DNA of 64,000 bases from Asterochloris sp. CNOR1 (taxonomy: Eukaryota > Chlorophyta > Trebouxiophyceae > Trebouxiales > Trebouxiaceae). The position numbers and the translations under genes were made by a program. Shown piece after piece: positions 6,253 through 64,000 of the stretch (position 1 is its first letter; the number at the start of each line of letters is the position of its first letter). The notes under the pieces are model-generated. The model was not told the origin of the DNA. It did not search any database and saw only the letters and a program-made list of their open reading frames with translations. The stretch covers positions 2,294,001 through 2,358,000 of the forward strand of contig OZ017749.1 of the NCBI GenBank assembly GCA_963969365.1. The letters are read 5' to 3'.

Positions 6253-9200
6253 TGTGTGCAGACATCTGGCGCTCAAACAGTGACCGTGACAGACGTTGCT
6301 GGGCACTTACAGCGCATGGCTGGTCTCTATAATCAGCCACAATTCAGCGATGTTCGCTTGACATCAGAGGACAGGCATCAGTTCTACTGTCACAAAGCGA
6401 TTCTGGCGGCAGTGAGTGGCCCCTTTAAAGATGCTGTGGCCACCCAAGGTGAGCACCAGCCCACTGTGATGGCCTGAGGCGGCCAGAAGGGGTAATCAAG
6501 TGTGAGGTGGCAAGGCACGAGTTCTCTGTGAAAGATCCTGGTGTACCAAACTGGCCCCCCTCTGGTGCCCAACAAAGCTGCCAGCATGCTGTTCAGAAGG
6601 GTGGGTTTCGAGGCCAGCGGGCTGCTTTGGTGGTTGGAGAGCAGCTTGCTGCTGCCTGTCCCAGGGCCCGCTTGAGCCTCTGCTGGCAAGTGCTTGAAAG
6701 AAGCACCCCCAGAAGTGCACTGCAGCGACAAAGCTTGTCCTGATGCAAGGCTCCTGTCCTGCAGATGCAAGGCTGTGCTGTCACAGCACCTCTCATAGAA
6801 GCTTGCATCTGCAGACAGGAGGAGGCCCCTCACTGCCAGCAACAACTAAATCTGGTAGCCTGCGGTGACAACATGGGCCCTGCCATCCTCTGACAAAGAC
6901 AGCAGCAGACAGCCCTGTGGCCTGCTGTGTTATTGTGCTGCTCTGAAGATGTGGTGCGCATTGACAAGATGAGCGCAGCCACCTTTTGATGGGGACCAGA
7001 CAGCCCTGCGCCCAGCAAATGTACTCTCCTGCTCTGCCGGTGTCATGCGCATGGACAGCATGGGCTCTGCGGACGTGGTGCACATGGACATGTTGGCCCC
7101 CTGCCACCCTCCCACAAAGACAGCAACCATGTGCCCAGCTCCCTGCTGTCTTTCCCCTGCAGAGGTAGTGCGCATGGACAAGACAAGCGCTGCCACCCTG
7201 GAGGAGGTGCTTCGCTTCTGCTACACGGGGACTGCCACTCTGACGGCAGGCACCGTGCTGCACATCTGCACCGTGGCCGACCAGTTCCAGATCCATGCGC
7301 TGCACCAGCAGTGCAAGCAGTACATCGAGGTGGGGCACTGCTTCACTGCAGTGCACGCTCAGTCAGGCGGGGTCAGTGGGGCCTGTCAGGATGCGTTGTG
7401 GTGAAACACAGGCACAGGCACACACCTGCTCAGGGTTCCCATGGGCCTGGGCCCTGAGTGGCTGCAACGCCTTGCTTCGGTGCCAAGGGCATGCCAGACA
7501 TTGCTGCTGTTTGCGTGCACAAATCGCAGCCCATCCTGGCTGCAGGCCAACATCACTGTGGGCAACTGCGTCCTCATGCTGGAGCAGGCGGACCACTACA
7601 AGATGCAGAAGCTTGGCGAGGTGGGGTCCTTTGGTTTCACAGCACCGCCCTTTGAACTGCAATGCGTGACAGCACCAAGCCCTTCCTGTCAAGCATTCGG
7701 TATTTTAGGCAGCCCACTGGTTGCCAGGCTTTTTACTGATGCGTGTGATGTTCTGCCCTTGCGACATTGCCAGGTGCCATGCAATGCAGTGCAAGCCTGG
7801 CAAGCCAACTGGGCATGCCCACCGTGTGTTTGCACTAAGGGCTGACCTGCTCTGCTGGGAGCCAGCAAGACCCAATTCACAGCTTTGGCGGGCAACAGCA
7901 GAAGGTCCTTGTCGCTCAAGCACATGCTGTTCTCTGCAGGCCTATGCCTCATCAGGAGCTGACCCCTCAGTTGCCTGCTTGCTCCCCTGCAGATCTGCTG
8001 GGACACAGTGGAACGGCACTTTGATGAGGCTGCCCACCACGAGGGGTTCCTCCACTTCAGGTGGGCCCATCAAGCCTGCAGCAGGCCACAGAGCTGCATG
8101 ATGAAGGGGTCAGCCCTGATGTGGCTGCTGCTTATCACCATGCTCAAATTTGCACCCGCCTCTATCTGCTACACACCTCCTGGTGCACTGCCTGTCCCTG
8201 CACACCCTGCCTTGGAAGGGGCTCTTGATACAGCTGTCCAGGTCTGGCATGTACCACCCTTCACCCACCCTCTTGCCGCCTGCCCTGCCCCTGCAGGTTT
8301 GCCACGCTGCGCAAGCTGCTGTGCAGCGACTCCCTGTGGGGCGGGTGCGAGTACGACGTGTTCTGCGCCGTGCTTAAGTGGGTGGGGGCGGAGTCTGCCC
8401 GGGACAGCCACCTGGCTGAGCTGCTGGGCCTCATCCGCTTCCCCACCATGACCCTGGACCAGCTGACAGCAGTGGGCAAGGAGCCGCGCGTGGTGGCCTG
8501 CCCCGGCTTCAAGGTGAGCACCCACGTAGTCATAACCAGCATTGCATGTGACTGGTGCTTGCATGAGGCGATGAGGAATCTGCCCTGGCCTCCATGTGGG
8601 GACCTGCTGCCTCATGCCCACCGCAACCCGGGACCAGCTGACAGCTATTGGCAAGGAGGTGCATGTGAGCGGCCTGCCCCGGCTTCATGGGAACATGCGG
8701 AGTCAAGCTGGCTGGCCTGCAGTTGAGCCTGGCTTCAGGCCCGACACAGTGGCAAGGAGCTGCGTGCAGTAGCCTGCCTGGCTTAAACGCCACAATACGT
8801 TTGTTCAGAGGCAGCAGGAGCCTGTGTATGGTGCTGGTAGCAGCAGGTTGCTCGTGCAGCAGGGCTGTGGTGCTGCTTGTGTGGTCATTAGCTGGGGCTG
8901 CCTTAGAGTGTTGTTGGTATGGGGACAGCCGGAGCCCCTAATGCATGTGGGCACCCTGCAGCAGCAACGGAGTGTGCCACTTCTGTACAAAGCAATTACA
9001 GCGGCCACCTGCTTTTCTGGCTTTTTATGTCGTCCTGCAAGCTGCTGCAGACACGTCCTCCCTTGAGTGCAGGACGGGTACTGGTAATGTTGGCAGCAGC
9101 TGTTGCTGCTGCAGGACCAGTCTCTCTGCAGAATAAGCTGTCACGGGCTGGCTGCACTGAAGCACTTTGAAAGCCAGTGGCGGAAGCTAGTACGCTGCTG

Positions 9201-10086
9201 CGTGGCTGTTGCAATATCTCTGGCTGCAGGACAAGCTGCTCAAGGCCTTCGTGTGTGGGTCAGTCAGAGTTCTGCAGGCGCTGCTGGTGCTGCTGCATGG
9301 CAGACTGGCGGCTGTGACCCGTCACTCCCAAGCTGCAGGACATGCTGCCAGAGGGCTCCATGTGGGTCAGGCCTCGCATCCCCAAATCTCCTGGACATCT
9401 GATTCTGTGTCTGCAGGACAAGCTGCTGGAGGCTTTCATGTGGGTCAGCCAGAGCTCGGAGGATGGGGAGATGATCCCACGGTCCTCCCAGCACATTGAG
9501 ACACGCTTCAGGCCGCGACCAGACCCCGACTTTGTCTCTTGGGCCGAGCTGGACCTGTGCGGGGAGATCTGCCATTGGTCTCCCCAGAGCCTGCCTGTTG
9601 ATGACAGTGAGTTGCCCGGCAACTCCATGTCTGCTGATTGTGCACCCTGTGTTTGCGTATGCAGCACTATGCTTGTCATGTGAAAAGGTTCAGGTGCCTG
9701 GTTCCACCTGACGTGAGGCATTTGCTATTTCCATTTCAACGGTCATGCCTGGCCTGAAACCTTGAGGTCTCAGTGAATGGTATGAGTTTCGCTTGGTAGC
9801 GATAGTGGCCCGCGCTGCTGCCAGCATCGTGTCGGTGGGGTGGCGGCCTCCATGCTGCTGCATCGTCGCTTGCATGTGTGGAGCTCAACAGGGCAGTCCT
9901 GATGCTCACAATAAACTTGAGCCTAGAGCTCGTGTTCCCCCAGGCACGCATGTCACCTTAGTGATGTTTGATCTTCCACTCTTTGGCACAAACTTACAGC
10001 TGTGTGGTGCAGGCCCAGACAGCAGCTTCCTCAAGGACGAGTCTCGCAGCCCCACCCTCAGGCGCTCCCTGAAAATCGCTGACTAG
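6253..10086 (+). CDS. BTB/POZ-BACK domain protein
   Basis: Exons: ~6253-6448, 7163-7329, 7546-7620, 7993-~8059, 8297-8513, 9417-9606 and 10013-10086. The first two form a BTB/POZ domain (FSDVRLTSEDRHQFYCHKAI, then TLEEVLRFCYTGTATL and ADQFQIHALHQQCKQYI). The next three form a BACK domain (NCVLMLEQADHYKMQKL, then the WDTVERHF segment, then LWGGCEYDVFCAVLKWV). The last join is exact: an A left at 9606 plus GC at 10013 makes Ser, and the protein ends RRSLKIAD with TAG at 10084-10086. BTB-BACK proteins usually serve as substrate adaptors for Cullin-3 ubiquitin ligases; that role is inferred from the family. There is no Kelch repeat. The start is uncertain: an in-frame ATG at 6316 precedes the BTB core, but a spliced upstream exon is equally likely. 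Three introns carry decayed copies of neighbouring exons (see findings). Confidence 0.8.
6944..7110 (+). repeat. Decayed copies of BTB exon 2 in the preceding intron
   Basis: Three partial copies of the start of the true exon at 7163 (EVVRMDKTSAAT) lie in the intron before it. They are 6944-6993 (EDVVRIDKMSAATF then TGA), 7041-7070 (VMRMDSMGSA) and 7072-7110 (DVVHMDMLAPCHP). They carry stops or are out of frame, so they cannot replace the true exon. Confidence 0.75.
8609..8785 (+). repeat. Decayed copies of BACK exon in the following intron
   Basis: The true exon ends at 8513 with the LDQLTAVGKE...CPGFK segment. A long degraded copy of the same stretch lies at 8609-8688 (ccagctgacagc, then ggcaaggag, then ctgccccggcttca). 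A shorter, more decayed one lies at 8738-8785. Both are inside the intron that follows the exon. Confidence 0.7.
9105..9376 (+). repeat. Three decayed copies of the exon starting at 9417
   Basis: The true exon (DKLLEAFMWVSQSSEDGE) follows the acceptor ctgcag at 9411-9416. Upstream in the same intron are a weak copy near 9105-9150, a strong one at 9223-9271 (LQDKLLKAFVCGS) and another at 9332-9376 (LQDMLPEGSMWVRP). Each includes its own ctgcag. Confidence 0.75.
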
Positions 10087-14800
<4,714 letters not shown>

Positions 14801-23818: not shown

Positions 23819-26800
23819 ATGGCGCAGGAGGCTCCCCCAGGCTTTGAGAACCGTCAGGCACGCAGACCAAGGAGGAAGCCTCAGCAAGGTGTAAGACCTG
23901 CTGTCGATCAAGGGCAGCGCAGCATGGCTGCCGGCGGCGGCAATGTTCAACAGCAGCGCCAGTGGCACCAGATGACTGCGCAGGTGCAGGGCAATGGCCA
24001 GCAGCCCCCTCCTCAGCGGGATGCTGCTCCAGCCAGGACCAGCAGCACCACTCGCAACCATCTGACAGACGTGTCCTTCTCTAGCCTGCCAATCAGCGCA
24101 GAGACAAAGAGGTGACAGCCACAGATGTCCATCCAAAATGTTTGCGGGATCCCGTGCTGCCCCTGCCTGCCTGCTGGCAGTTCGAGGCTGCATTGCAGCC
24201 TCGAGCTGCTGTAGAGCACTGGCCAAAGTCATGCACTGAGACATCTGCAGGTTGGTCCAGGCAGATTGTGTTCCTGTCGTCTCAGGGAAGCTCTGACACA
24301 CTCAAGCTTGGCTTTGTGCAGGGCGCTGGCTGAGGTCATGCATTATGACATGTGCACGCTGGTCCAGGCGCAGTCCATCCCTGCTGTGCTTGGGGGCAGG
24401 GACCACGTGGTGAAGGCCAAGACGGGCACAGGGAAGACACTGGCATTCCTCATACCCGCCATTGAGAGGGTGAGTCATGCAACCCTGGCCCAGTCAGCTG
24501 CAGCTGCACAACGTGCTGAGGCCGGCAATGGCACCCTTCACATTCACTCTAGAACAGTGGTGTGGCAAGGGCACCGTGGCAGCTCTGCCTGTGTGAACAG
24601 GCCCTGTGCAGAATTTTGGTGTTCAGATCCAAGGCAGTCTGGCAGAGAACAGAAATCACTTTCAAGCAACCAAACAGCTGCTTCCTACTCAGTATGCTTT
24701 GTGCTGCTTCTGCAGATGCAAAAGCTTGGCGTCCCTCAGGGGTCTCTGGCAGTGCTCATCCTGTCACCCACCAGGGAGCTGGCGATGCAGATTGCCACAG
24801 AGGCCGAGCAAGTCGGGCACTTCCAGAGGCTGTCTGTGCAGGTGATGTCTTGTGTGCAGTGCATCGTGCAACCCTGAGCGTCTTGAATCGAGAATAGATG
24901 ACACATTCTGCCGGGCACTGCCAGCCAAGGCATGGGTGCAACCCCCCCCCCCCCCCCCCCCCCCCCGCGCATGCTGGGTGCAAGCATCCCAACAAGAGGC
25001 GCCCCTTGCAGACGGTTGTGGGCGGTACCAATGTGAAGACAGATGCCAGCCGCCTGCGCAACAAGCCGCCCCACATCCTGGTGGCCACCCCGGGGCGCCT
25101 GGACGACCTCCTGAAGCAGGGCGCGCTCAGCCGCCAGGCAATCAGCAGGCTGCAGACGCTGATTTTTGATGAAGGGGACCGGCTGATGGACATGGGCTTC
25201 AGGTGCGCACTGTGCTGCAATGGTGGACAACCACCAGCTACCCGGCATTGCTTATGGCACGGCCAGCACAAGAAGGCCTGCTGTGAAGTGGAGGCCCCAG
25301 GAAGGCTCAGCAGTCTGACATGCTGGCTTTTCTTTGTGGCCACACACACATTCAAAGTCTCAGAAGCCATTTGTGCTTGCAAGACATGCTTAGATGGTTG
25401 TGAGTGTGTCTTGCAGCCTGCCCCTCCCAGGCCAGCCAGGCATTGCTCACTGTTTGCTGGTGCCTGTCTCACCCAACGGTGGCCCTGCGATGCAGGCCCC
25501 AGGTGGACGCTATCCTGCAGCAGCTGCCATCAAAGGAGACCCGCCAGACAGTGCTGTTCAGCGCCACCTTTCCCAAGGACATCCGTGAGCTGACTGGCTA
25601 TGCCCTCAGGAGTGGCTACAGTGTCATCGACACCGTTGGCGAGTCTGACATGCATGCGCATGAGCAGGTGGGCCGCAGTGGATGCTGAACAAGAGCTTCA
25701 GTCAGCAGAACAGTGGCACCGCAGGCAGATTTTCTCCAAGCTGCTGCGCATCCACAACCTCTGTGCAGGTGTTTGCCGGTGGCTTTGAAGTGTGCTCAGA
25801 ACTTCACGGCCTAGCAGCCCTGCTGACTGCAGCGGGAGCAGGCAGTGCCGCTGATGGCTGTGCCCTTACGCAGAACCTCTGATGGCTGCAGGTGCAGCAG
25901 AGCGCCATGGTGGTGCCCCTGGAGAATGCTATCGCATCTGTTTGGAGTGTGATCGCAAAGCACATCCAGGAGGAGCCAGACTTCAAGGTACGCACTCAAG
26001 GCCCACCTGGATGGTCCTCGTCTCTTCTGGAGTGCAGCTAGGAGCAGGAAGCTGCTGGCTGCTCACCTGATGCTGGTTGGCGGCTGCACACGTCTGCCCA
26101 TCAGCTTGCTGGGTGCCAACTGCCGGCAAGCAGCACATGTCTGGCATCATGGACGTGCTCATGCTCAGTTGTCCCCTTCACTGTCCTGTCCCAAGTCCTG
26201 GTGTTGTGATTGTACCCAGCCAAGATGCCCTGCTGCCTGTCCCAGCATATGCACGTGCCCACAGGCCTTCCGGTGCACCGTGTGCAGGTCATCACGGTGT
26301 TCAACACACCTTGCTTGTGTCTAGAGCTTAGTGTCCCTCTGCCCCTTCCATTGCAGGCCCATGCAAACAGGCCTCCTCTGCTGCACCGTGGTGCAGGACA
26401 TGGACCTACCTCACGGCCAGCTGGTGGCCTCAGCCAGGGCGCAGAGCTGCCTGCTCTGGTGCATGCACGTCTTCACAAGCGTCCCACTGCATGCTGCAGG
26501 TCATGGGGTCTCATTGTGGCCTGTTGGCAGCCCAAGGTTGGAGGTGGTCACCGTGTTGTGCCATGCTGCAGGTCATGGTCTTCTTTACTACAGCCCGCAT
26601 CACCCAGATCTATGCTGAGCTCTTCAACAAGATGGGCTGCGAGGTGCTGGAGCTGCACTCTAGGAAGTCGCAGGCGTACAGGTGGGCACTGAACTGCGGT
26701 GATTGCCCAATGCCGCCTTCATGCTCGCACTTGGCAGCATTCAGCTCAGAGGCGGGGGCCCCATTCCAAGGCCGTCCAGAGCATCTGCTGGTGCCCCTGC

Positions 26801-30666: not shown

Positions 30667-31019
30667 CTGGAGGTGCTGCTCAGCACTGACGCTACAGGCA
30701 ATCTTGTCCAATGTAGCTTGACAGAGCGGTCAAAGAGAATTGTTGACCTAGAGCTGCTGCTGCGCAAGAGGCAGAGGACTCTCAAATTTGATCTCAGGAA
30801 TTACTTCGATCTGAAGACTGCAAGCAGGCAGAGGTCAGTCTGACAGGTGCTGGTCTCCCAGCCGATCTTTGCCCTCCCGGTATCGATCTGGGCCTGCAGC
30901 CTCAGGACATAGAGGACAATGCACAACACCCATTCCTTGCGGCTGCAGGCCGGTGGCCTGCCCCAGAGGGGGGCCCCCGCAACTGGGGCCGGACCTGAGG
31001 TTGCTCCCTGAGATCTAGC
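30667..31019. promoter_or_regulatory. 353-bp divergent promoter, PsbP-domain gene / PPR gene
   Basis: Both start codons point outward from this interval. No exon was recognised. Two genes of probable plastid function would share it, which fits co-regulation but does not prove it. Confidence 0.4.
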
Positions 31020-45900: not shown

Positions 45901-48900
45901 GTACCTCCACAAAGCTGTGCAACTGCAAGCTTTGCTTATACCGCACACACCAAGGTCCGGGCGTCGCGCACGTGTGCATGGAGCTGGAGACACCTGCCTC
46001 ACTACTTTGCCTATCCTGTCTGCTGATTCCTCCTGGCCCCATGGCATGAGAGGGGTTCAAGAAAACTGTGGTGCATCTTCAGGCTGTCGCCTGCCAGGCC
46101 GCTGCTGCTGACCGCATGAGGGCTTTGCAATTTGGGTGTGCTCCACGACTCTTTGCACCAAGCCTGGCACATGAGGTCAGGCCCACTCATGGTGCGGTAG
46201 CAGGCCAGCTACTGCGGCACGCCTAGATGCGGAGCATGCCGCCTGCAGCTGGCCGACGGCCTCGCCTGGCAACCGAACATGTGCTGCACGTGTAGGGCAG
46301 CAACTGAAGACATCCCTGTGCATGGCAGCACACCCTCACAGCCCCCAGGTTTGCACCTGCAGGTCAGCCACTGCAGGCCTCCTGGATGCAGAGCAGGCTG
46401 CCGCAACCTGTCCCAGGCGCCTGCAGACGAGCAGCAGCCGTGCCTGACCGCAGCACACGCGCTGCATATGAAGGACAGCCACCACAGGCGTCCATGCGCA
46501 TCACTGGATGAGCTTAGAGCTTCCAGGTGTGCACCTGCAGGCCAGCCACTGCGGGCCCCCTGGATGCAGAGCAGGCCCCCGTGACCTTTCCTGGACGCCT
46601 GCAGCCGGGGGGCAGCCGCGCCCGCCACCAGCACCTGTGGTTTGCCTCAGCACGCCCCACGCAGGCCACCGGGCACGCTGTCATGCGCCGTCTGTCCCTG
46701 GACTGCAAAGTCACCAGCGGAGGCAGCCGGACTGACGGCCAGGCCGCCTCCCCTGACAAACCTCCGGACCGTGCAGCTTTGGGCAATGGAGCCTCCAAGG
46801 AGGTAAGCTTGCAGCCTGAATACGTGTGCCGTGCAGCCAGCACGGGCTGACCTACCTGTCACAGCACCACCAGTGCGTCTCACTCTCCAACGAGCCCCCA
46901 GAGTATGTATCTGTTGGCCAGCAGAGCTTGCGGCTCACATTTGCATGCATCTGGGGTTGATTGTGGGACAGTCTGACTGGTCAATCCGTCTCTTTGCCCA
47001 GAGTGTGCATCTGCTGGCCGGCAGCCTGCAGCAAGTCATCCCTTGAGACAATCCTCTCAGCTGGGGGCAGTTGGACGTGAATGTCCAGCTGGCAGTGCTG
47101 AAGTTCTTTTGCACTGACGCGCTATGTAGGTGGCCAATGCAAGAGCAATTCATGCTGAGGCAGTGGCAGGTGGCTCCCTTTGTGGCATGCGGCAGGCATC
47201 ACCACACTGCACCTTTGCCACCAATGTTTAGGCGCTGGCATAAGGCAGGATGCCCTCTGGCCCTGGTCACACGACTAACACCCGGCAGGCCCAGATGTGC
47301 TGCTAGCTGCGCTCCCTGCTTGTCAAGTCACCCCGGTGATGTCAGTCAGCCTTGGCCTGTTGCGTGAGCAGGTGCTGTTGGCGCAGGGGCAGGCAGCCAA
47401 GAAGGTTCCCATTGACGGCCTCACGCTGGGGCCCACCATCGTGGCAGCAGCGCGCAGCAAGGTCTACAAGGGCACCTTCAACGGCATGGCAGTCAGCGTC
47501 AAGGTGGGTGTGGCGCAGGGGACTGCACCTGTCACTGTGGCCAGCTACAGCCTGCCACCACCTCCCAGCCGATCAGGGGTCCGCACACCATGCGCTGCTT
47601 GTGCTGCTGTCTTGTGTGCTGTCCTTGTCCAGGTAGCGTGACCAGGCATTCAGGCAGGACATCTCCTGGTTCCTGCTGGAATGGCAGGTTGTGCCCCTGA
47701 TGCCAGAAATGGTGCTGTGCAGGTGTTGCAGGTGCCAGTTGGAGCAGCAGATGCCGCACAGTCTCCTCTGCCCTGCTGAGGTGTCTGTGTTGCCCGTGAG
47801 CTAGAAATTGGGGGTGTGCAGACATTGGAGGTACAGACTGCACATGCAGACTCAGCACAGGCCATGTGTCAGGCGCTGACCCTGACTCCGGAACAGCACT
47901 TTGCAGGTGTCACGGGTGGAGATCGCCCCGGGAGATGCTGAAGACAATGTCGACAGCAGTGAGCTGCAGCTGCTGAGGAAGCTGGAACATCCTCACATCT
48001 GCGCTGCACTGGCCAGCAAGACACGGATAGTAGTTGAGGCTGGCCAGGTAATGTCTTCAAGCCTGCAAGAGTAGGAGTGCTGCCTTGCAGCAGATGGCAC
48101 CCCCATGCTACCTGGCACATCTGCCGCAGCACAGCTGCCTGCACTCTGGGGGTGAACTTGGCCTGTCCTGGTCTCAGCCCCTGGGCAACCACCAACTGTG
48201 CAGATGCGCATGGGCCATCTTTGTCGGGCACCGTAATCTCTCCCAACTTGTTGCACAGGTCAGGCGCCACAGGACGAGCAGGAACCTGTTGGGTGCTGTC
48301 GCACCAGGCGAAGAGGCGCAGCACTCACCCTTGCTGCAGCAGGCCATTCAGGAGTCCTGGATTGTGCGCAGGGCCTGCAATCGTGGCACCCTCCAGGCAA
48401 GGAGCCACCAGCTGGCAGCGCTTGCACAGGGACCATGCACCAGCAAGCCTGAGTCATGCTGTAGCACCAACGGCAGCGCGACTGCACGGGCACTGTGCAG
48501 CCGGTCGCCCTGTGTCTGGAGGGTTCTGCTGACACTTGGGCACAGGCGACGCCTGGCGCGCAAGCTGCTGTGGGAGTCCCCTCATGTGCACTGGGCAGTG
48601 CTTGCGGTGCAGGAGGCCTGTGAGCTGTGGCAACGCCTACAGCAGCAACATTTGGCATGCATCTTGGTGTGGGGCCCTCATGCTGGAGGCTGGGCTCTGC
48701 TGCTGATGCTGCAACGCAGCATACTCCTGTAGTCTCCCCCTCTCTCCCATGTGAGCACACCCTGCTGGGGCTGGGCATCTTTGCTGGTGCAAGAGAGTTG
48801 GCATCGGGGCCAGAGCACTGCCACCACATGTGCCTCCTGTTGCAGGAGGTCTGCAAGTCGTGGCCGTGTCTGCCACGGTACCTGATGCACAAGCTGGTCT

Positions 48901-51089: not shown

Positions 51090-54000
51090 TCATGCATTTC
51101 GACTGCCCAGACTGCCACCTGAGAAAGTCTTTTGCAAAGGAGCAATCTCTGGGGCTTCCATGCTGCTGCGGGGGGCCTGCTCGCTGCAGCAATCAGTAGC
51201 ACTCTTGGCAATCATGATACGCTGTGATGCAACCATTGCCTTGTATGCTGAAGGCCCCGCAAACTCACATGTCTCCATCTTTGCGGTCATGAGGCAGCAG
51301 GTGAGTAGCCCTCGCTTCCCCAGTAAGTATGACGGCACGCTTGAACAACAGCGGCCCTGCTAACAAGTTCAGGGTGATGACACATACCTGCAGCAGGGTA
51401 TTCAAGCCAGGAGTCCTGCCAGGTGCAGCTGTTGGGCATCCAGCTCAAAAGGCATGCCGCCCCTTCGACAGCGCCACCACTGACACCTCACCATGAGTGT
51501 TGTAAAGTCAGCCGCCCAGTCCCCCGGAAACTTGGCCGCAGTGGTCTTGGCCAGCCCCATTGCCACTCCTGCCTGCAGCCGTCAGAGGGGCCACAGGCCT
51601 CTGGTTGTGTTCAGGTATGTTGCTCAGGCGCTGCCACACGCAACCTTCAGTTCCAGGCCTGGAGACTTGGCAGGGGCCATCATGGTGCTGATGTTCACAC
51701 CGTGTACACTAGCGCCCCTGGCTTCGGCATGTTGGTAGCGCTGGCAGCAGGGACAGAGGCCATTGCGCAATCAGCAGGTGCGAGTAACAACAGCTCGGCA
51801 TGCTTTCCGCTTTCAAGTGCTCCACAGGCTGTGAGGCGGCACAATGCGCACTGTGTGCAGCGGCTGACAGCCCCATCAGGCAGGCGCGCCAGGTGTTGCC
51901 CAGCTGACGTGGCTTGCCTGCGTGACCATGCCCATCCACAGGTGCTTGCGGGCGTCAGACGGAGCGGCCCCCAGCCAGCAGCCCAGCCAGGACCCAAGGT
52001 ATATTGCGCCCAGGCGAGCCCCAAAGATGACTGCCGCAGCCCACAGGCTGCCCACAAAGGAGGCCTGCGGTCAGGGGAATTGGTCAAAGTTTGGGGAACT
52101 GCTGCAAGAAGGGGCAGAGGGGGGCTAAGGTACCTGTGTCAGCTGCTGACATGCCACGTGCACACTACAGCAGATGCAAGCACCGCTGGCTGCTCGTGCA
52201 CCACTCCGCCCATCATCAGAACCTCTGCTGCGATACCCGTCCTGGCAAGCAAGGGCACTTGGCCCTGGCAAGAGCAGCTGTGCAAGCTACACGTGAGGCC
52301 ACAGGTGTGGGATGCAGGTCCCACAGCATAGACAAGTGTGAGGGTCGCGTTGCAGCATGGCTGGGGTCACAGAAGGGCCCTTGAGTGGTCACTGGAGGTG
52401 CCCACCAGCTTGAGGCTGGCTCCCGTGAGGCCAAAGAAGAGGAGGTAGACCAGGGGCATTAGTTGGGACAGGCTGGCTGCCAGCTCCTCCTGAATCAGGC
52501 TGCTGGATGCCTCAGCCCTGCAGGCCGAGTCCGGTGTGCTGGGCAGGGCAACAGCTGCGTCTCCCTGGCTGCTGGACGGAGCAGCTGGACGCACCAGCTC
52601 CACAGGGCACCAAGCAGTTTTCACTGAGGCTTCTCAGTGAGCTGGCTGCCAGCAACACTTGTCGCGCAGACCTGGCAGCCTGCTGCCAGGTGGGCAGACC
52701 TATGCCCCATAGCGTGCTCAGGCAGGGCTATTGCACATTCCCTTGGACCCCCAGGTCACGGCCCACCTGCGGTTGGTGGTCACGGCCCCCGCGACCACAC
52801 AGGTCAGGAGGGGCTCTGCATGGATGGCCTCGGCCAGAAAAAATATGGCGGCTGTGCACAGCAGCACCACTGCAGGCTGCACCCTGCACAGCGATGGGGT
52901 AACACAGATCAGCACCAGCTGTACACTGTAACTAGTTTGCAGCGCCCACCTTGCGGAGCTCACAGACCTCTGCAGGGGCCTGGTTAGATTGGGCACACAA
53001 GCAGTTGTGGCAAGCTGTGGCACCCTGCATCAGCTGCAACTTCATGCAACATTGTGGGAGAGTCCATGTCTGAGCAGGGCCGGGCAGGCGCAGGACCACC
53101 CAGAGGGATCTGAAACGAGAAGGGCGCTGACTCACCACTTCTGGGCGGGGCTGGGCAGGCGCTTGACTGCCGCAGGCCACCTGCGCCCCGAGGCACTGCC
53201 CCCAACTTGTAGCCCCAGCAAGATCCCTGACACTGTTCCCAGCAGCCCAGAGGACACTAGGGTGGCCAGGGGCACCAGCAGGTGGGACGCCCTGCCCCCG
53301 CCGGGCTCCTTGCGCATGACCTATGCTGCAGGACTGCCGGGGTCTGGGGCGGCCATTCATACAAAGGCGTTGCCAGTGTCTGGACGTGAATGCACAGCCA
53401 GCATGGCGCTCACGACCTGGCCAGTCAGTACAGACTGCTGAAGGCAGCGCCACAGGTGCAGTCATCAGGATGCCCAGGTTCTGTAAGCAGGCTGCACTGG
53501 TGGGCAGCCCAGAGACACTGTGTGAGGGTAGGGCCAGCAGGCTCTGGCAACCTCACAGCCGTGCGGCATGACAGGCTGCAGCTACGCAGGACACAGGACA
53601 GCAAGCTTCGCATGCATGTCTCCGCACCGTCGTACACAAGGACCCAAGGCCGAACCAGCACAGAGACTTCGGGTGGCAGGCAACGCAGGCTCCACGCTGG
53701 ACAGCTCTACGTTTACCCGCAGGCATGGATGCTTCAGACGCACAGACCCTCACCCTACAGGCAATGCCTGGATTGCCCGCAGAGCCGTTACTGGCAGTGG
53801 CACACTGGCTCACCACGCTGGCAGCCTCCAGGTTGATGGCAAAGCAGATGAAGGTGACCACGTCCTTGACCACCACCACTGCCATGACCAGAGAGCAGAA
53901 GGGGCCCCTGCCCTCAGTCTCCTTCAGCACAGCAATCTGCAGCCGTAGGCGGCAGCTCAGCAAGCTGTTGGGCTCCCTTGTCTTGGGATGGATCCAGATG

Positions 54001-55353
54001 CATCATGCAGTCCACCGCACGTAAGCAGGCGTAGAAGCACAGCCAGGCAGGCCTCTGCAGCGCGGGCAGGTGGGACTACTGGCAGGCTTCCCTCTGCTGA
54101 ACAGTAAAGGGTTGATGGGAGCTGCATCTCACCGCAGAAGCAGGTGATCGGGCAATGGCCAAGACCCCTGCCAGCGCAGCCAGGACCTCTAGCTGGGCAG
54201 CGGACAGGCCCTTGGCCATTGGCAGCAGCGGCGACAGCAGCAGCACTGTGAAGAAAACGGCCATGAAGCTGCAGATGGAAAGCCCTGTCGTGATGGACAG
54301 CACCTGCAGCCATGGGTGTGGGCAGCCGCGAGTGGGCAGCCGTACTGGCAGGGCCGGGACCTGTGCCGCTCAGAGATCAGGGGGACTGAGTGCATCACAG
54401 CTCTGTTCACCATGCAGAGCTTGCTGCCTTAGCCCCGCTTGTTTTTGCAGTACCTAGCTTCAGTAGCAGGGCAAGCAAAAGTCCAGGCCTGCCAACCTGG
54501 CCCTGGGTGCGCCTCAGCTGAGGGCCTTGGGAGCCTCATGTTCAGCATGGAGCACGTCCTGTAGTTAGCCAAGGAGGCCTGCTGCCTGGCATTGAGTGCG
54601 CCACAGCTCAGGATGCGCCGGCAGCTGACTTCCAGTGCACGTCAACATTGCCAGGGACATCGAGACACGTGATGAAGCAGCCTGCCCGAGTGCAGCGTCA
54701 CATGCAGGCTTTCGCCACCTCAGTCCTCCAAGCTGCAGCAGCACCACATTTCCTTTCTGACCTGGCGCTGAGTGCGCCGCAGCTCAGAGATGCGCAGCTC
54801 TGCCCCAGCGGCCAGCGCGATGATGCTGAGGCAGAGACCGTCCATGAACTTCACGGAGCTCAGCGCCGGCACAGTCAGCAGGCCCATCACTGAGGGCCCG
54901 CTGAGCACGCCAGCCAGCAGGTAGCCTGCAGAGCATCAGGACTAAGTGATAGTGCGTCAGAGTGCATCTCAGCCAGCGTCAGCAGGCTGATGCATGGGGC
55001 CCCTGCTGCTGCGCACTTGCCGGCAGGTAGCCTGCAGGGCACCAGCACGCCTGGGACCGAGAGAGGCAAACCAGCGGCCAAACAGCAGCTCACTGTGAGC
55101 AGGCGCACGACCATAGGCTCGGTGTGATAACCTGCCAGAACGGACACCCGGGAGCTGTGCCGGCTCATTGGATGGTGCAAGGAAGCCCCTGCGAGAGGGA
55201 CATCCTTGTCCAACATCACAACACCATCCATGCGTCTGATGTTCTCCGCTCACCTGTGATCAGGGGAGCCTTCACATGCTGGGCGCCCTTGCCCATGAAC
55301 CACCATGATGGTCCCAGCAATCCGAGGACTGCCAAGCCATAAACAGCTGCCAT
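51090..55353 (-). CDS. CPA2-family cation/proton antiporter (KEA-like)
   Basis: Membrane antiporter, probably K+/H+ exchange in a plastid or endomembrane; family inference. ATG at 55353: MAAVYGLAVLGLLGPSWWFM, first membrane segment, then HVKAPLIT joined G|GC to GYLLAGVLSGPSVMGLL (exon ~54762-54925), with FMDGLCLSIIALAAGAELRI. Later exons: ~54120-54303 (FFTVLLLSPLLPMAKGLS, EVLAALAGVLAIARSP), ~53816-53950 (AVLKETEGRGPF, MAVVVVKDVVTFICFAINLE), ~53170-53290 (LLVPLATLVSSGLLGTVSGI), ~52745-52885 (VVLLCTAAIFFLAEAIHAEP), ~52395-52510 (LMPLVYLLFFGLTGASLKLV), ~51925-52050 (FGARLGAIYLGSWLGCWLGA), ~51493-51560 (GLAKTTAAKFPGDWAADFTT), ~51276-51383 (VITLNLLAGPLLFKRAVILT) and 51090-51183 (EQAPRSSMEAPEIAPL, stop). 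The AT|C join to the last exon uses a consensus GTGAGT donor. No TrkA-N domain was seen, unlike KEA1-3. The ITGYLL..G...GP and AVLKE motifs are family hallmarks. Copies of its second exon's edges lie in both flanking introns. Confidence 0.85.
54496..54630 (-). repeat. Two decayed copies of the exon/donor edge of antiporter exon 2
   Basis: The true exon end (plus strand 54762 on: ctggcgctgagtgcgccgca) is echoed at 54583-54625 (ctggcattgagtgcgccaca) and at 54496-54526 (ctggccctgggtgcgcctca). Both lie in the intron downstream of that exon in the minus-strand reading direction. Confidence 0.75.
55012..55045 (-). repeat. Decayed copy of antiporter exon 2 start in its upstream intron
   Basis: ggcaggtagcctgcagggca at ~55018 repeats the acceptor and first codons of the true exon near 54916-54936 (agcaggtagcctgcagagca). 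Confidence 0.65.
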
Positions 55354-55715: not shown

Positions 55716-58700
55716 ATGGCCATTCCTGCTCACAAGGTTATTCCTGGTGAGAGGGGCAGTGTTGGGTATGGTTAGAGGAGCACAAGACTCTACAGGGGGT
55801 GCACCTTTCAACTGCTCGCACTTTCAGCAGGTACTGGCTTTGTGGTAGATGGCTTCAGACATGCCCGGCAGGATGTCAAGGCATACTTCCTGTCCCATGC
55901 TCACTCAGGTCAGCCACATGATTTGGCCACAGCGTGTATTCCTGCTGACAACACAATATGCAAAACCAGTCAACAGTGTGCTGCAGATCACTACACAGGC
56001 CTGACAGAGAACTGGGACGCAGGGCTGATCTTCTGTAGTGCAGTCACCGGCCGCCTGGTGCAGTACATGCTGGGCATCAAGGCGCAGTGCATACAGGCAC
56101 TGCCCATGGACCAGCCCCAGATGCTGCATGGTGAGCTGCTGCTTCATGCACCTGCAGCCCTGCAGGCACTCCCTGCTGTGCTGTACGAGGCCTTGCAGGT
56201 GCCATGAACAGCTTGGTGCCTTGATCGTGCTCATGAGCTCTCTGGGACTCCTGTGCCGACGGCTGTGCCATGACCATCAAGCGTCCATCGTGGCTGCAGT
56301 GTGCTGGCCCATAGCTGGATCAGGTTGCCACATCTGGCTGGCTGAACGGCGCCTATCTTGGGCATAAAGAACCTCTGGAACAGTCCTTCCAAGCCCGGAA
56401 GACAACTGTATTTGCTCTGTTGGCTCTTGATAGTCAGGGCTGGTGTACACACTGTTCAAGCTGGCCACATGCAAATTAAGTCTAAAGGCATGCTCCCCTG
56501 CTGCTGCTGCAGGAGTGGAGGTAACACTGGTAGATGCCAATCACTGCCCAGGGGCAGTGCAATTCCTGTTCAAGCTGGCCACAGGAGAGACCTACATCCA
56601 CTGCGGGGACATGAGGTTTGGGCAACACCTACTGGGGGACCCCCACCTGCAGCGCTTCAGGGGCTGCACAGCCATCTTTCTGGACACGACCTACCTGAAT
56701 CCCAGGCACACCTTTCCTCCACAGGTGGGAACACCGTGGTCATGGCATGTTGAACGGTAGCATGGTCCCTGACTGGCACGCAGTGAGCTGTTTGACAGGG
56801 CTGCCCAGCCAGGCACAGTGACAGTTGCGTGAAGCCTCTCAGCGCCCGCAAGGCCCGGTGCTCATCCCCTGGCGCTGCTGCATGTTGCACTTCTTCCATG
56901 GCTGCTACACACACTGTGCTGCTGCTTCAAGCCAATGCAATGCAACTTGCGCCCACATGACCCCTGTACAGCCATCGCCTGGCAGCCAGGCTGACTGGCT
57001 TGCAGGCTACAGTCAATGCCCACCGCCCATGACCTGCTGTTGCAGGGCCCATTAGTGGCATATTGTGCAGACATGATTGCTGACCTAAGCGCTCTGTCCA
57101 ATACACTGCCCGTGGCCTGTCGCTGTAACACGAGTCTGTGCGCTGTGTGGACCACCATACTGCATCTTCTGCTGCAGCCCTCGATGAGTGCTGCTGCAGG
57201 ACGAGTCAGTGGCCTGTGTGATAGACACTGTTGCCAGTTCAACCGTCAGGGCCCTGATGCTTTAAAACCATACAAAGGCAGCGTGCAGGACGACCACTGC
57301 ATGGTGGTCCCTGCAGTCCTGGCTGACACCAGCGCTCTGGCTGAGCCAGACCACACCTGGCACTCAGCTATCAGCAGATGCGCAGCTGTGTAATCAAACC
57401 TATAGCTGAATGTTGCTGCAGGACGAGTCAGTGGCCTATGTGGCAGACACCATTGCCCGCCTGATGGCCGAGCCCACCCGCAGAGTGTACCTGATTTCGA
57501 CATACAACATTGGCAAGGAGCGCATCCTGCTGGCTGTGCACCGCCAGTGTGGCTGTAAGATCGGCGTCTCAGAAAGGAAGCTGGGGACCATGCAGTGCCT
57601 GGAGCTGCCTGGTGAGGAACCCAGCACTTCTGGTAGTTAGTACCCTTGCCGAGTGGGCATTTCCTTCCCCTCCACCCCGATCTCCCCTTCACACCACCTG
57701 AAAAGGCAGCAGCAGGCACTGCAGTGCCTGGGCCCATGCAGGAAGGCTTCCTGCGGCCGCCAGCGCCCACGCAAGCCAGGTAGTCCTGCGCTGCTGCAAT
57801 GTTGCATTCTGTGATGTCACCGTGCTATCTGCAGTGATGCCAGGCTGTGCTTGCACCCAACCCTCTGCCTGTCCATGGATAGGTCCGCTGCATCAAGCCT
57901 TTGGCACCCAACAGGTGTCTCCCTCGGCTGCACATGTTGCGATCCTGTGCGATGACACAATGATGTCGTCCCAGAGGCACCTGCAGTAGCTCCACAGCTG
58001 TGCTGTGACTACCTTGCCCTTATGTGTCCATCACCTGTGTGCCTAGCAAGCCTCTTCAAGCTTGGCAAGCCTCTTCAAGCCTTTGTCAACACCCTGCAGG
58101 TGTTGATGTCAACGAGATGTTCACCACTGACCTGGCCACCACCCCAGTCCATGTGGCGGGCATGGGGTTCATTGGTGAGCCAGGGCTGCTCAGCCTTGCA
58201 TGAGGCTGGCAGGCCAGGTGGTGTCACAGTTTTGCTCCCTCGAGTGTCATGCAGAGCAAGAAAGAGCAACGAGCGCTTCCCTCTTAGCCGGGCTGACAAG
58301 GTTTGCTGCCCTGCAGGCGACACCTGGCCCTACTTCAGGCCCAACTTTGTCAACATGGAGCAGTATGGAACTGACCATAATGCAGAGGAGGTAACTTCTG
58401 CTGATCTGCTGGCATCTGTGTGACATTTGCATCTGCACGGTGCAAAGTGCCCTGCATTGCTTGTGAGCAGCGGGAGGGACCCACAAGAGGTGGGCTCTGT
58501 ATTTGCACTGTCCTGAAACCTCCCAACTGGCTGCTGCCAGGCGCCACAGTGGTTCTGGCAGGCGAGTGGGGGCTTCACTTTCATCGCCTCCGTTCTGGGG
58601 CATTGTCCCTTATGTCAACTGGCATGGTGGTCCCTGTTGATGCCTGATATTGTCCCCAGACGCTTGCTCTTGCTCTGTTCTGGCAGCCTCCCATGGCCCC

Positions 58701-61700
58701 ATGTGTCAGCTGCTGCAGTGGCCCTGCAGGTGGTGGGCCTGGAGTTGCAGCCATCCTTTGGGACTCTGCTGTAGTAGGCTTGAACAGCTGCCACAGTGCC
58801 TCCTCCCCAGGCGGCTGGCTGTGCTTAGCTCTTCTGACACAGGTCCTCCCCTGTACCAGCTTGCAAGCAGCCCTGTAGTCCCCCCTGCCCTGCAGGTGCT
58901 TGGCTTGTTTGGCGACAGGGTGGAGGAGCTCCCTTGGAGCTCTTCTGCTGCATCTCCAGACAGCTGTCATGGGGCTTGAATGCTGAAATTCGTTTGAGGC
59001 CATCAAATCCTGCCCTGCAGGTGGTGGGCTTTGTTCCCACTGGCTGGACCTATGAGATGAAGCGGAAAACGTACCCTGTCCGATCCAAGGAGGCCTGCCA
59101 CATCCACCTGGTGCCCTACAGCGAGCACAGCTCCTACACCGAGCTGCGGGATTACGTCCGCTTCCTCAAGCCCCAGCATGTGGGAACACTCTCTCGCTTG
59201 GTTGCTCCACAGGCTCTGTGCACAGGGGATGCATGCCTGGCCATTGCACACAGACCCTACCTCCTGCACTGAGCTGCGGGACTCTGCCTACTTCTTGACA
59301 CCACCGCAGAGTGCCTTCCTTGTGCCGATGCAGCAGCAGCAGCAGCGGCCAGTCACCTGCTGCCTGTGCTTGTTGGGTGCGCCTGGCTGGGAGCAGCTTT
59401 GTGACTGCATGGATTGGCGAGCAATGATGCTGCCTGTTTTGGAGGATGGCTTCTTGATGTGTTGAGTGTTGAGACAAGTTGCAGGTCTGGCCGCTTTGCG
59501 CAGCAATGCTGCAGGAACAGGATGTGATGCCTGACAGCCAGAAGCATCGACTTGTTCTGGCCTGGTTGACAGAGTTGCGCTGCACACCATCATGTGCACA
59601 TGAGAAGCAGCCTGCACAACACCAGCTGTGGGCTCCGCAGCAGCCCCACAACATGGGGGCACAACCATTGCCAGACATGCGCCATGACCTGCAGCAGCCC
59701 TGCAGCAGACGCAAGGAGCACTGTTGCTGCGCATGCTGCATTGTGTGCTTTCCTGGGGCGCAGTCAGCGTTCAGGCAGGAGCGAGAGTGATGCTGGCATG
59801 CTGTACTGCAGGTCATCCCCACTGTGGGCGTGCATGATGACAGCAGCGGCAAGAAGAATGCTGGAATGCTGAAGCACTTCAGGAACCTCGTGAATGAGAC
59901 AGCTGCAAAGCAGCATTTTCTGCGCTCCCTGCACAAGTCTGGCAGCACAGGCAGTGGGCAGCTTCAGGCTGCTGCGGAGGAGGCTGTCGCTCAGGCAGAG
60001 GAGGAGCCAGCTGCAGGTAAAGGAAAAAGGGGCGGTATGAGCCAACCTGATGCAGCACTCCAATAAGCGGAAGGGGTGCTCAGCTGGACTTGCTGACTCT
60101 ACTGCACACATGCAGTTTGCCCCAACAGGGTGCGGCCGCATGATGGTTCAGGCGCCCTTTGCAAAGGCATGCGCTCTGCGCCACCACACGCACACGGGAC
60201 GTGTCCAACAATCTGCAGGTGCAACCTTCACTGGCCACATTATCAAGGGGTCTCGGACACAGTGCTTTCTCCCTGTGCAGATGCACCTCGTGGTGCTGAA
60301 CCCTCAGAGGATGGCCCAGCGCCTGTGCCAGCAGCAGGGGCTGCCTCTCCTGGACACGACAACACTAAACAAGCCGAGGAGGCTTCGCCAAGTTTCCAGT
60401 CCAGGCCTCTGCCTGAGCTTGCTGCTGTGCCAGGCAGCAGTGCACAGCCAGCTGGCGGCAAGCCGGCGCTGCTGGCTATGCCTGCACCTGTGCCTGCTGC
60501 TGTGGCGGCCAGCAGTGCAGCGCTGTCCGGCAGCAAGCGCAAGAGGGGCAGCCCTGAAGTTGACTTGGGGGCTGGAGGCGGTCTGAGGCCTCAGGAGGAG
60601 GCAACGGGCGCCAGCCACGCGCTGGATGCAACCAGCCTGCCAGTGTCACAAGCTGGCGAGCCTGGTGCAGTCTCACTCTCCGCACCCCTCGCCCAGCTGC
60701 TGGCAGTGGTGGGGCCAGAGGCGTCCACCGGGCAGGCACAGGGGCTGCTGGCCAGAGCAGGAGGCGATGTTGGCAGGGCTCTCAACATGTGGCTGGATGC
60801 CAGCAAGGACCCTCAGGCATCCACCACCGCGGACAGGCCCAGCCAGCAGCAACAGGGTCACCAGCAGCAGGGTCCTGAGCCCTTGAAGGCTACCAGCAGT
60901 GGAGGCAGGGCCAGCCAAGGACAGCAGGGCCTGCAGCAGCAGCCTGCCAGCAGGCAGAAGAGCAAGCCTCTGGACCGGGTGGCAAAGCCAGGGCCTGGGC
61001 GCAAACGAAATGTCGGCGCTGCCAAGGGCAGCAGCAAATCCCTGTCCCAGGAGGCCAAGGCTGCTGCAGAGGGGCCCAAGCAGTGCAGCATCACCACGTT
61101 CTTTGCTAGCCGCTGCGCAATTGGCCAGGTGGCTGGCACCACCAGCTGCACCGTAGCGGCTGGGGCGTTGCCCACAGCAGGCGCTGCCCTGCACGGAGCC
61201 AGCACTGCTGAGAGCACGGCTGTCTCAGTGGCTGGCGCTGCTGCTGCCAACGGGGCAGCAGACGCGACAGGGGCTACGGTCAGTGCTGCCTCACACAAAG
61301 GCAGCAGCGCCGACACTGCTCCAATGGAAGTGGAGCAGGAGGACAGCGTCGTCCATCTGGACACCAGCAGCCCCTGTGAAGTTGAGGCGCAGCAGGCGCA
61401 GCAGCAGCTTATTGATGAGGTAGCCACTGCGCCCAGCCAGCGGCCCGTTGAAGCTTCAGCACCTGCTGCGCCAGGCAACATGCAGTTGCCCACAGATTCT
61501 GTTGCCCTACCAAGCAGGCCTGAGCTTGAGGAACAGGGGCAGCAGCCAGTGCTGCACCCCATGTTTCAGCCGCGCCAGCGCAAGAGGCCTGCCAGCAGCA
61601 GCCAGTGTCCTGCTGTTGCTGGGCAGCCAACCCCAGAGGGCAAGCGCCAGAGTCCTGCTGTGACTCCCAGCAGCAGCCAGAAGGCTGAAATGGCTGCTGC

Positions 61701-64000
61701 GCAGCCAGCAGGCTGCCAGCCCACGGCAGAGGTGGTGGCAGCTAGTGGCAGCCCAGCGGCCAGGGTGGGAAGGGTCACACTTGGTGCCAAATTGGCGCCG
61801 CAGCCAGTGAGGGATGTGCCGCACGATGCTGTGCTGTTGCCCGTGCAGCAGTACAAGCCGATCGACCATGCGTGCTGGGAGCAGGAGGGTGCAACACCCT
61901 ACCTGCACATTGCCCGCGCCCTCCAGGTCAGCTTGTTGCATATATGCATTTGCACTTGGCTGCTGCTTTCCTGGCTTGGCATTGGCCAATCATGTGTGTT
62001 GGACAGCAAGCACCTGACAGAACAGTGGCGGACCACAACCTAGCTCCGCTGCTGAGGTTCCTGATCTACACCTGTGGTTCACCAGGCATTGTGGGGGTTA
62101 TATGTCTGCTTTCGTCCATTGGCCTGTGGCTAGCTGCCTGAGCTGTAATCTCAAACATGCAGGCAATGGACGGCACTACCAAACGCCTGAGGATTGGAGA
62201 TGTAGTCACCAATATGTTTCGCACCGTGCTTGCCTTGTCGCCCGGTGAGCTGGTTGCTGACCTGACACTGGAACACACAGATGGTTCTCTGCAGGGCATG
62301 GATGTAAACTCCGGATGTGGTAGGCTATATTGCTGGGGCCTAGCTTGGCACTCAATCAGTGTTGCTTCACTGTGAGATCACACTTCTCCTGCTGCACCAT
62401 CTTACTGTGGAAGTACCCATGGTGTCGTTGGGTGGAGCCCACATCCTGAGTCTTGTGCTCTGCAGGCAAGACACTGCTGATTCCCAGTCTGGGCACAGAG
62501 TGACTTGGTGTTTCTGCTTGGTGATGAGGCCAGGCTTCCTTCCCTCCACAAGTGCATGGATCTTGCTCTGACAGAGACTCTCGTGCCTGCAGGTGACATG
62601 TTGCAGGCCACTTATCTTGTCATGGGCAAGCTAGCCCCTGATTATGAGAATGTGGAGCTCAATGTGGGAGGCAGCACTGTGGCGGCAGCTGTCAGGGAGG
62701 CCACTGGTGGGTGACCCCATTGCCTGGGTCAGGGTTCCCTGAAAAGGGTTAGGGCATGCTGTACTGCCAGGATGTTGCCATGACGATGAGCTGCAACCAT
62801 CTGCGCCCAGTTCAACGTGGAAGGCAGTGTGTGTATGTGCTGTGGCACTGGCTGTCAGAGAGGCAGCTGGTGGGCAGCCTTACTGATCTCCATGCATCCC
62901 TGGGGCCGTGAAGTCACTCTAGCGCTAACCTGTCAGCTGCTGCATTCAAAATTACCACAGGCACAGCATGAGCTTCAACGCCATGGCCTGTGCTGCAGGC
63001 ACCACCAGAGCAAGGTTGCGAGACATGTACACAGAGCAGGGGGACTTGGGGGATGTCGCACAGGCCTGTCGCCAGACGCAGGTGAGGCTCTCCGCTGCCA
63101 GACACACTTTGCTGCACGTGTATTCCTGGCAGGCAGTTCAATGCCTCAAGTAGTGCTGTCGCAGAGCCTTTTGCATCCTTTTAACATGAACGGATTACAG
63201 GCTGTGCAGGCAATGGGGTGCCCTGCCGTCAGACCTGCTCCACACATCTTGCGTCAGCCTTGCCACATCAGTTGTGCAACGGCGCAGCAGTCCTGTCCCT
63301 GATGTGCTGCAGACCATGCTGCACCGCCCAGCCCCATTGAGTGTGGCTGGAGTGTACAAAACACTGCGGCAGATCGCGCTGGAAAAGGGTGCTGGGTCAG
63401 CTGCCCGGCGCCAGCAGGCAATCCTCAGCATGCTTCGGAGCTGCAGGTGGGAATGTATCGTCAGCTTGAGACAGGGTTTGTCACTCTGCATGCTCTGCAG
63501 CTGCAGCAAGGATGGCTTGTCTACCTGGGGAGCTGCCTGCCTGCAGCTTTGACGGCTGCATCCCCTTCACATCAGTGCAGTCAGTTGGCTTTTGAGGTGT
63601 GTCAGCAAGCCTTAAGCTCTTTGTCAGGTCGAAACCTGCAAGGGCCTGCTGCGGCTTATGACACCAGTCTGTGCCCTGGTGCAGAGCCTCAGATTTTCTG
63701 CAGGTTGGTAAAGTGTCGAAGGCCTGCAGGAAGTGCGGCGCTCATTTCACACTAGACCAGGGCCTTGAAGCTGTGCTGCTGCAGCAACCGCCACAAGTGC
63801 ATGTTGCTGGGATTGGTGCAGAAGGGAAGGGCATTATTGCAGCTCCACAGCACTCCTTGATACCTGCAGGGAGTGCGAGACCAAGTACCTGGTGCGCACT
63901 CTGGTGCAGAATCTGAGGGTGGGCGCCAACTGGCGCTCTGTGATTGGCCCCCTGGCCAAGGCAGTTGTACTGCACAAAGAGGGCATGCGAGTGCCCAAAG
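55716..64000 (+). CDS. LIG6: DNA ligase 6-type protein: SNM1/beta-CASP nuclease fused to ATP-dependent DNA ligase, 3' end outside window
   Basis: Plant-lineage DNA repair enzyme joining a metallo-beta-lactamase/beta-CASP (SNM1-like) module to a ligase-I-type DNA ligase. Exon 1 is 55716-55746 (MAIPAHKVIPG), joined to 55831-55908 and 55987-56130. Splicing yields FLSHAHSDHYTGL, the HxHxDH metal motif. Later come VTLVDANHCPGAVQFLF, ETYIHCGDMRF (~56517-56725), YLISTYNIGKERILLA (57422 on), PVHVAGMGFI (~58101), VVGFVPTGWTYEMKRKT and HLVPYSEHSSYTEL (59021-59178). A long exon, 60281-61926, is Ala/Gln/Ser-rich. It holds a basic KRKRGSPE segment, a UBA-like helix bundle (LAQLLAVVGPEASTG...ALNMWLD) and QCSITTFF, a PCNA-binding (PIP) box pattern. 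It ends YKPIDHACWEQEGATPYLHI, start of the ligase DNA-binding domain. Further ligase exons run to the right edge (LRIGDVVTNMFRTVL, GDMLQATYLVMGKLAPDYEN, ARLRDMYTEQGDLGDVAQ, LVRTLVQNLRVGANWRSVIG). The catalytic KxDG part lies outside. Several introns hold ghost exons. Confidence 0.92.
56439..56470 (+). repeat. Decayed copy of a LIG6 exon segment in the upstream intron
   Basis: ctgttcaagctggccaca at 56453-56470 is identical to an internal part of the true exon at ~56567 (VQFLFKLAT), and both are preceded by a related gggc...gtgca stretch. Confidence 0.65.
57041..57360 (+). repeat. Three decayed copies of the LIG6 exon beginning at 57422
   Basis: The true exon reads QDESVAYVADTIARLMAEP. Copies are 57041-57101 (QGPLVAYCADMIADLSALS), 57191-57262 (QDESVACVIDTVASS, with 17 identical bases gcaggacgagtcagtgg) and 57283-57350 (QDDHCMVVPAVLADTSALAE). 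All lie in the intron just upstream and each starts at its own tgcag. Confidence 0.8.
58721..58912 (+). repeat. Two decayed copies of the LIG6 exon beginning at 59021
   Basis: The true acceptor and exon start ccctgcaggtggtgggcttt occurs as ccctgcaggtggtgggcctg at ~58722 and ccctgcaggtgcttggcttg at ~58889 in the upstream intron. Confidence 0.7.
59261..59312 (+). repeat. Decayed copy of the LIG6 exon ending near 59178
   Basis: tcctgcactgagctgcggga and the following ~30 bases parallel the exon end tcctacaccgagctgcggga at ~59131. The copy has a TGA in place of the Thr codon. Confidence 0.7.
62812..62880 (+). repeat. Decayed copy of the LIG6 exon ending near 62709
   Basis: The exon end (aatgtgggaggcagcactgt, then gctgtcagggaggccactgg, then tggg) is echoed at 62812-62880 (aacgtggaaggcagtgtgtg, then gctgtcagagaggcagctgg, then tggg) in the following intron. 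Confidence 0.75.

Follow-up and report, generated by a model that had tools for sequence, protein, structure and literature searches.

In tandem exon duplication, which underlies mutually exclusive exons, exon sequence is duplicated locally into introns, and introner elements constitute another case of repeated sequence linked to introns. The copies described here, from the genome of Asterochloris sp. CNOR1, resemble the former in being local duplications of exon sequence, but what is duplicated is a single exon edge, and the duplicate decays irrespective of frame; they resemble the latter in that sequence is repeated in introns, but each copy resembles the neighbouring exon. Small tandem duplications are also said to have been the subject of a rice study by Vaughn and Bennetzen in 2014. 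According to PMC8355091, small tandem duplications arising from break repair are short, direct and head-to-tail and form a common class of insertions. The duplications reported below are likewise short and direct and, in some pairs, head-to-tail, but differ in forming an old, decayed series that selection and decay associate with splice junctions, and their repair pathway is only putative. Tandem duplication is moreover a classical model of intron gain, and in a potato RdRp case the duplication crosses an intron-exon boundary (PMC4974935). Both there and, in part of the pairs, here a tandem duplication carries splice signals across such a boundary; in the potato case a new intron was gained, whereas here the copies lie inside existing introns of many genes, which lengthen, and the frequency differs. 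The statement in the initial annotation that no described system was known is therefore limited by this one junction-crossing duplication in potato (PMC4974935). Tandem duplication itself is known; what is new is the commonness of junction-spanning duplications as a route of intron lengthening, and within a literature searched largely outside the subscription journals no title or abstract describes them as a general route of this kind.

The window, i.e. the whole stretch of 64,000 nucleotides analysed (C4:2294001-2358000 of a 56.38-Mb genome in 21 contigs), was complemented by a second, independent sample of 200 kb of contig C1 (offsets counted from 1,000,000), in order to check the pattern outside the window that had suggested it. 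Genes were modelled using a small hidden Markov gene finder seeded with recognisable exons and self-trained on the 264 kb of DNA, with no RNA input. This yielded 457 high-confidence exons, a donor consensus close to CAG/GTGAG and an acceptor consensus close to TGCAG/G (slash at the splice site). Among the faults of these models, neighbouring genes are apparently fused and some decoys are called as short exons. Eight of the nine predicted proteins or pieces submitted matched clear Pfam families (BTB/BACK, class II DAHP synthase, DEAD helicase, PPR, GAF/kinase/cyclin C, SNM1-type nuclease, HIT/AAA and DNA ligase N terminus). The predicted ‘antiporter’ protein matched no Pfam family, which leaves that label unconfirmed, and an SMR domain is absent from the Pfam matches of the pieces submitted. 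The predicted helicase also aligns to a solved relative, and residues 1-361 of the 364 in the LIG6 nuclease model align to the solved SNM1A. A further gene is predicted on the minus strand at 29010-31021 of the window, the product of which, judged by eye, we take to resemble a PsbP-like lumenal protein.

The first or last 80 bp (at most) of each exon were compared to the adjacent intron over a maximum of 350 bp at a score of at least 15, with swapped introns as control, for 384 exons each way, of which 97 each way lie in the window. A copy of the exon edge was found in the adjacent intron in 20 of 194 edge tests in the window and in 49 of 768 in the window and C1 combined, where about 3.4 were expected by intron swap. 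Similarity to adjacent introns is thus far higher than to unrelated ones, and the introns do hold copies of neighbouring exon edges, as first proposed from the letters of the window. The 20 copies in the window fit the ‘at least 15’ places then counted, and none of the six genes named at that stage is without one. By side, copies were found in 28 of 384 tests at donors (2.6 expected) and 21 of 384 at acceptors (0.8 expected), the window contributing 10 of 97 on each. The median length is 465 bp for the 45 introns that hold a copy and 288 bp for the 339 that do not, bearing in mind that longer introns also give more room for copies.

A test of shorter edges (40-bp exon tails and heads, score of at least 14, swapped-intron controls) reveals a marked side-specificity. 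Exon tails recur in the downstream intron in 28 of 333 cases versus 4 of 1665 when swapped (p = 1.2e-18). Of the exon heads, 12 of 338 recur in the upstream intron, compared to 5 of 1690 when swapped (p = 1.1e-6). Exon heads in downstream introns are at background level (2 of 333, p = 0.46), exon tails in upstream introns are not significant (3 of 338 versus 3 of 1690, p = 0.06), and exon middles compared to the adjacent introns are likewise at background (1 of 157 and 0 of 166). The arrangement described in the initial annotation, exon ends downstream and exon starts upstream, is therefore correct, and copying of just any exon part was rejected, as the middles and wrong-side combinations stay at background. 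Both samples contribute: at 40 bp the window gave 9 of 85 for tails downstream (control 2/850) and 6 of 87 for heads upstream (control 2/870), and C1 gave 19 of 248 (control 12/2480) and 6 of 251 (control 4/2510), respectively. A preponderance of donor over acceptor copies is apparent with 40-bp edges at a score of at least 14 (28/333 versus 12/338, p = 0.009). It shrinks when 80-bp edges and a score of at least 15 are used (28/384 versus 21/384), and is not claimed.

The copies in the window are as follows. In the BTB gene (plus strand) the end of exon 8297-8513 (source 8435..8511, from gene model and edge test) is copied in the downstream intron at 8610..8687, with a spacing of 176 and 81% identity. 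Upstream and downstream of it, acceptor plus exon start occur three times at 6906..7193 (6906, 6997 and 7120, the last containing the modelled acceptor of exon 7163-7329) and three times at 9217..9457 (9217, 9326 and 9404; predicted exon 9417-9606), two sets that agree with the repeated tandem copies noted earlier. An intron of the same gene also holds a 71-bp piece (7906-7976) that is present twice on contig C9, at 86% identity and with about 8 kb between the two places; these were found, as two further places, by a genome search with 7880-8000, the sole intron piece searched alone. On the plus strand of the helicase gene the start of exon 24322-24469 is copied in the upstream intron at 24216..24262 (spacing 107). 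The PPR gene (plus) carries copies of the end of exon 32874-33014 at 33063..33105 (spacing 91, GT kept), of the start region of exon 33459-33632 at 33140..33169 (spacing 342), of the end region of exon 34839-35048 at 35151..35174 (spacing 137) and, weakly (score 15), of the start region of exon 36056-36186 at 35906..35952 (spacing 165). The cyclin part (plus) has, at 39883..39920, the acceptor and start of exon 39967-40290 (spacing 76, 36/38 identical), the GAF/kinase part (plus) a weak copy (score 15) of the end of exon 44931-45041 at 45148..45194 (spacing 153), and the kinase part (plus) a 178-bp tandem duplication at 46240..46595 across the acceptor of exon 46541-46802, with a decoy exon start at 46365-46440. 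Copies on the minus strand are those of the end of exon 4396-4583 of the first gene, in its downstream intron at 4175..4247 (spacing 224), and, in the antiporter-like gene, of the end of exon 53136-53320 at 53069..53096 (spacing 71), its start region at 53504..53540 (spacing 262) and the end of exon 54762-54925 at 54586..54618 (spacing 176). LIG6 (plus) has the start region of exon 56513-56724 at 56435..56469 (spacing 114), the acceptor and start of exon 57422-57611 at 57185..57235 (spacing 222, 86% identity, AG kept), the end region of the same exon at 57702..57731 (spacing 129), the end of exon 59021-59179 at 59248..59308 (spacing 130), a weak copy (score 15) of the start region of exon 59812-60016 at 59775..59803 (spacing 68) and the end of exon 62593-62706 at 62840..62869 (spacing 163, GT kept).

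The duplications are local and direct. In both the window and the 200 kb of C1, direct repeats spaced 20-300 bp apart are tens of times denser than those at 1-3 kb. An ungapped self-comparison of the window (score of at least 18) gave 12 segments at 50-100 bp versus 1 over 2000-3000 bp, and two shuffles of the window gave almost no such local direct repeats; C1 shows the same excess at short spacing, plus 15 segments at 3-4 kb. Chance similarity is excluded by the two shuffles, the long-distance offsets and the swapped introns. Among 170 pairs detected in a scan from 30 to 400 bp, 150 are spaced 30 to 225 bp, and local segments are direct in 182 cases versus 11 inverted (spacing 30-400, score of at least 16). 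This orientation bears on the suggestion that end joining copied nearby exon or intron DNA into breaks as templated insertions, which would agree with the unrelated sequence lying between some copies and their source. End-joining templated insertions occur in both orientations, however, and the few inverted copies exclude their inverted form, while exon tails are not clearly present in upstream introns (3/338 versus 3/1690); we regard templated insertion as very unlikely. Several of the well-preserved pairs form head-to-tail units with intron flank included, of 79 bp (C1 offset 112561), 110 bp (C1 124301) and 178 bp (window 46240-46595). Most pairs are heavily decayed, and the aligned length has a median of 0.44 of the spacing (69 pairs at a score of at least 18).

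Among the more decayed pairs, intron flank is retained in part. On the donor side residual homology is seen in 13 of 33 cases at a score of at least 13 (3.4 expected) and none in the remainder, and the mean ungapped identity of 28 pairs declines to 0.30 and 0.27, close to random, at 12-30 bp beyond the donor site. On the acceptor side it is seen in 4 of 25 at a score of at least 16 (0.47 expected), again with none in the remainder, and as 7 of 25 versus 6.1 expected are found at a score of at least 11, the excess rests on the 4 strong cases. The pairs at 39883/39959 (36/38 identical) and C1 95881 (31/33) have clean edges at most about 8 bp from the splice site and copies separated by unrelated sequence, the former not being plainly head-to-tail, and several clean-edged copies stop 5-15 bp beyond the junction. 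Such near-identical, clean-edged copies would call for a subsequent insertion or deletion, or for filler sequence; near-identical duplications are few, and the rate may therefore not be constant.

Two places in C1 show how such duplications appear in gene models. At offsets 14996-15215 an exon end, in an exon which presumably encodes a ribonucleotide reductase small subunit, recurs in the following intron as a long, decayed copy of which 67 bp align, and the gene finder called this copy as exon. On the minus strand at C1:1,149,902-1,150,125 a 118-bp duplication spans an acceptor, and in the gene model its upstream copy forms an exon of 66 nt, after which comes a GC-AG intron of 52 nt; this duplication near 1,150,000 is a candidate for intron gain by the same process. 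The edge tests sought copies inside introns, and intron gains fell outside their counts.

Reading frame separates duplications within exons from those reaching into introns. All 14 exon-exon pairs, from about 10 loci, have spacings divisible by three (two of the 14 were flagged as not lying within one exon, one of these being a 105-bp PPR repeat). Tandem repeats that keep the frame lie within exons at 21178-21330 of the window (51 bp, HIT/AAA gene) and at 60316-60870 in the long LIG6 linker exon (spacings 72, 75 and 165). Exon-to-intron copies show no frame constraint on spacing (remainders 0, 1 and 2 in 12, 17 and 20 cases), and mismatches are nearly flat over the three codon positions (143/677, 117/673 and 169/673), as in near-neutral decay. 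Indels occur in 19 of the 49 copies, all 19 frameshifted, and an in-frame stop in 5 of 49, the stops being fewer than the wording of the initial annotation implied. The splice site, said to be included in the copies, is so in part: where the junction is reached, the acceptor dinucleotide is kept in 8 of 11 copies (7.6 expected) and the donor dinucleotide in 8 of 21 (12.8 expected from identity, p = 0.03), the latter giving a weak hint that decoy donors are silenced.

Another reading would have the copies in use as exons, either tandem alternative or mutually exclusive ones. The decoys that keep AG (8/11) or the donor dinucleotide (8/21), and those called as short exons by the gene finder, would be compatible with this. 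The copies are, however, partial, taking in one exon edge while exon middles stay at background, their spacing is without frame, 19 of 49 are frameshifted and their codon-position differences are nearly flat. The 49 exon-edge copies, being side-specific, do not take the form of whole-exon, in-frame copies with two splice sites, and in LIG6 the residues of the decoy taken as a mini-exon face an adjoining 4-residue gap in the SNM1A alignment. Use as exons is accordingly slightly less probable still than templated insertion, and the copies probably lack a function in RNA. Least credible of all, and almost certainly not the source, is a route through RNA, by copying of spliced transcripts or by reverse splicing. 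The copies are exon-rich, as this would predict, and of 6322 cDNA-junction pieces compared to introns of the same gene 8 versus 3 in the control matched at a score of at least 18 and 3 versus 0 at a score of at least 20; the latter leaves a small doubt. At scores of at least 14 and 16 the counts are 55 versus 52 and 16 versus 10, i.e. no clear enrichment of spliced exon-exon junctions in introns among these 6322 pieces, and several well-preserved copies include intron flank.

The explanation we favour, with a probability of roughly 0.8, is that ordinary short tandem DNA duplications which straddle splice sites lengthen introns while leaving the protein unharmed, and that the bias towards exon edges reflects tolerance and slower decay. 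Short tandem duplications would arise at the DNA level along the genome, probably by break repair or slippage. If such a unit lies across a splice junction, use of the splice site closest to the body of the exon would restore the old mRNA; the additional exon edge and its splice site would end up in the intron, and the intron would gain one unit. Units within exons would be purged unless a multiple of three. Selection would hold the exon side, leaving only the intronic copy to decay, while intron-intron pairs would decay on both sides; with this one-sided decay, exon-edge copies would be recognisable longest and dominate what is seen. The earlier proposal of recurrent local duplication, through slippage or unequal exchange, as a route of intron growth is supported by the direct orientation, the head-to-tail units of several pairs, in part the flank homology, the simulation described below and the lack of a clear cDNA-type excess.

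The placement of the 170 pairs (spacing 30-400) bears on whether duplication is aimed at the junctions. Compared to random placement, intron-intron pairs number 56 (62.6 expected), intron-junction 38 (19.0), exon-intron 27 (36.1), junction versus low-confidence exon 14 (1.2), exon-exon 14 (13.8), intron versus low-confidence exon 10 (8.2), exon-junction 3 (10.5) and intergenic 3 (7.1), the last 5 being spread over four further classes. The two junction excesses (38 and 14), an exon-intron to intron-intron ratio of 11 to 1 in the highest score class and the clean-edged copies ending 5-15 bp past the junction are what would be expected if a transcription- or splicing-linked process, e.g. nicks or R-loops at exon borders, aimed duplications at junctions beyond the neutral level. 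Exon-intron and exon-junction pairs are, however, below random, and intron-intron pairs are near it. A junction excess alone does not mean aimed duplication.

Simulations were set against this, with uniform tandem duplications, free introns, constrained exons and the same detection as for the real data. They left out units that crossed two junctions or fell entirely within an exon, and their ages and indel rates were set by choice rather than by fitting. For ages 0.1-0.6 the simulated exon-intron to intron-intron ratio at cut-offs of 16, 20 and 25 was 1.70, 1.91 and 2.28, versus 1.18, 1.87 and 3.00 observed. At a cut-off of 30, where 11 to 1 was observed, it was 1.7 to 2.5 for these ages and 6 to 58 for older age ranges. 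Simulated alignment lengths are similar to those observed. The exon fraction of matching segments has a median of 0.79 versus 1.0 simulated (ages 0.1-0.6), and in comparison to another simulation set 0.84 versus 0.81 to 0.90; a constrained splice signal on the true side may lower this fraction. Over the settings tried the ratio at a cut-off of 16 ranged from about 1.0 to 15, driven mainly by the age range, and the simulation consequently demonstrates sufficiency rather than a fit. As uniform placement yields an exon-edge bias of the size observed, a splicing-linked process is not needed. A reading in which a lesion linked to transcription or splicing makes junctions hotspots of tandem duplication, introns growing chiefly from their edges and acquiring decoy sites that selection must silence, is unlikely, although less so than the other alternatives, and an aimed process of this kind in general is given the same low weight. 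As regards duplication ‘at exon borders’, the local duplication stands and need not be aimed there, since duplications are also found within introns (56 of the 170 pairs) and, in frame, within exons; the border bias is due largely to the tolerance of selection and the slower decay on the exon side.

Exon-edge copies can mislead gene finders, as happened in LIG6. Intron lengthening without transposons is rarely caught in the act, and here, among the exons tested, a recognisable copy in the neighbouring intron persists for 28 of 384 ends (7.3%) and 21 of 384 starts (5.5%), about 3.4 of these by chance. As the exon constitutes a nearly fixed reference, it could be used to date each event, which would make it possible to measure how fast introns grow and what becomes of duplicated splice sites.
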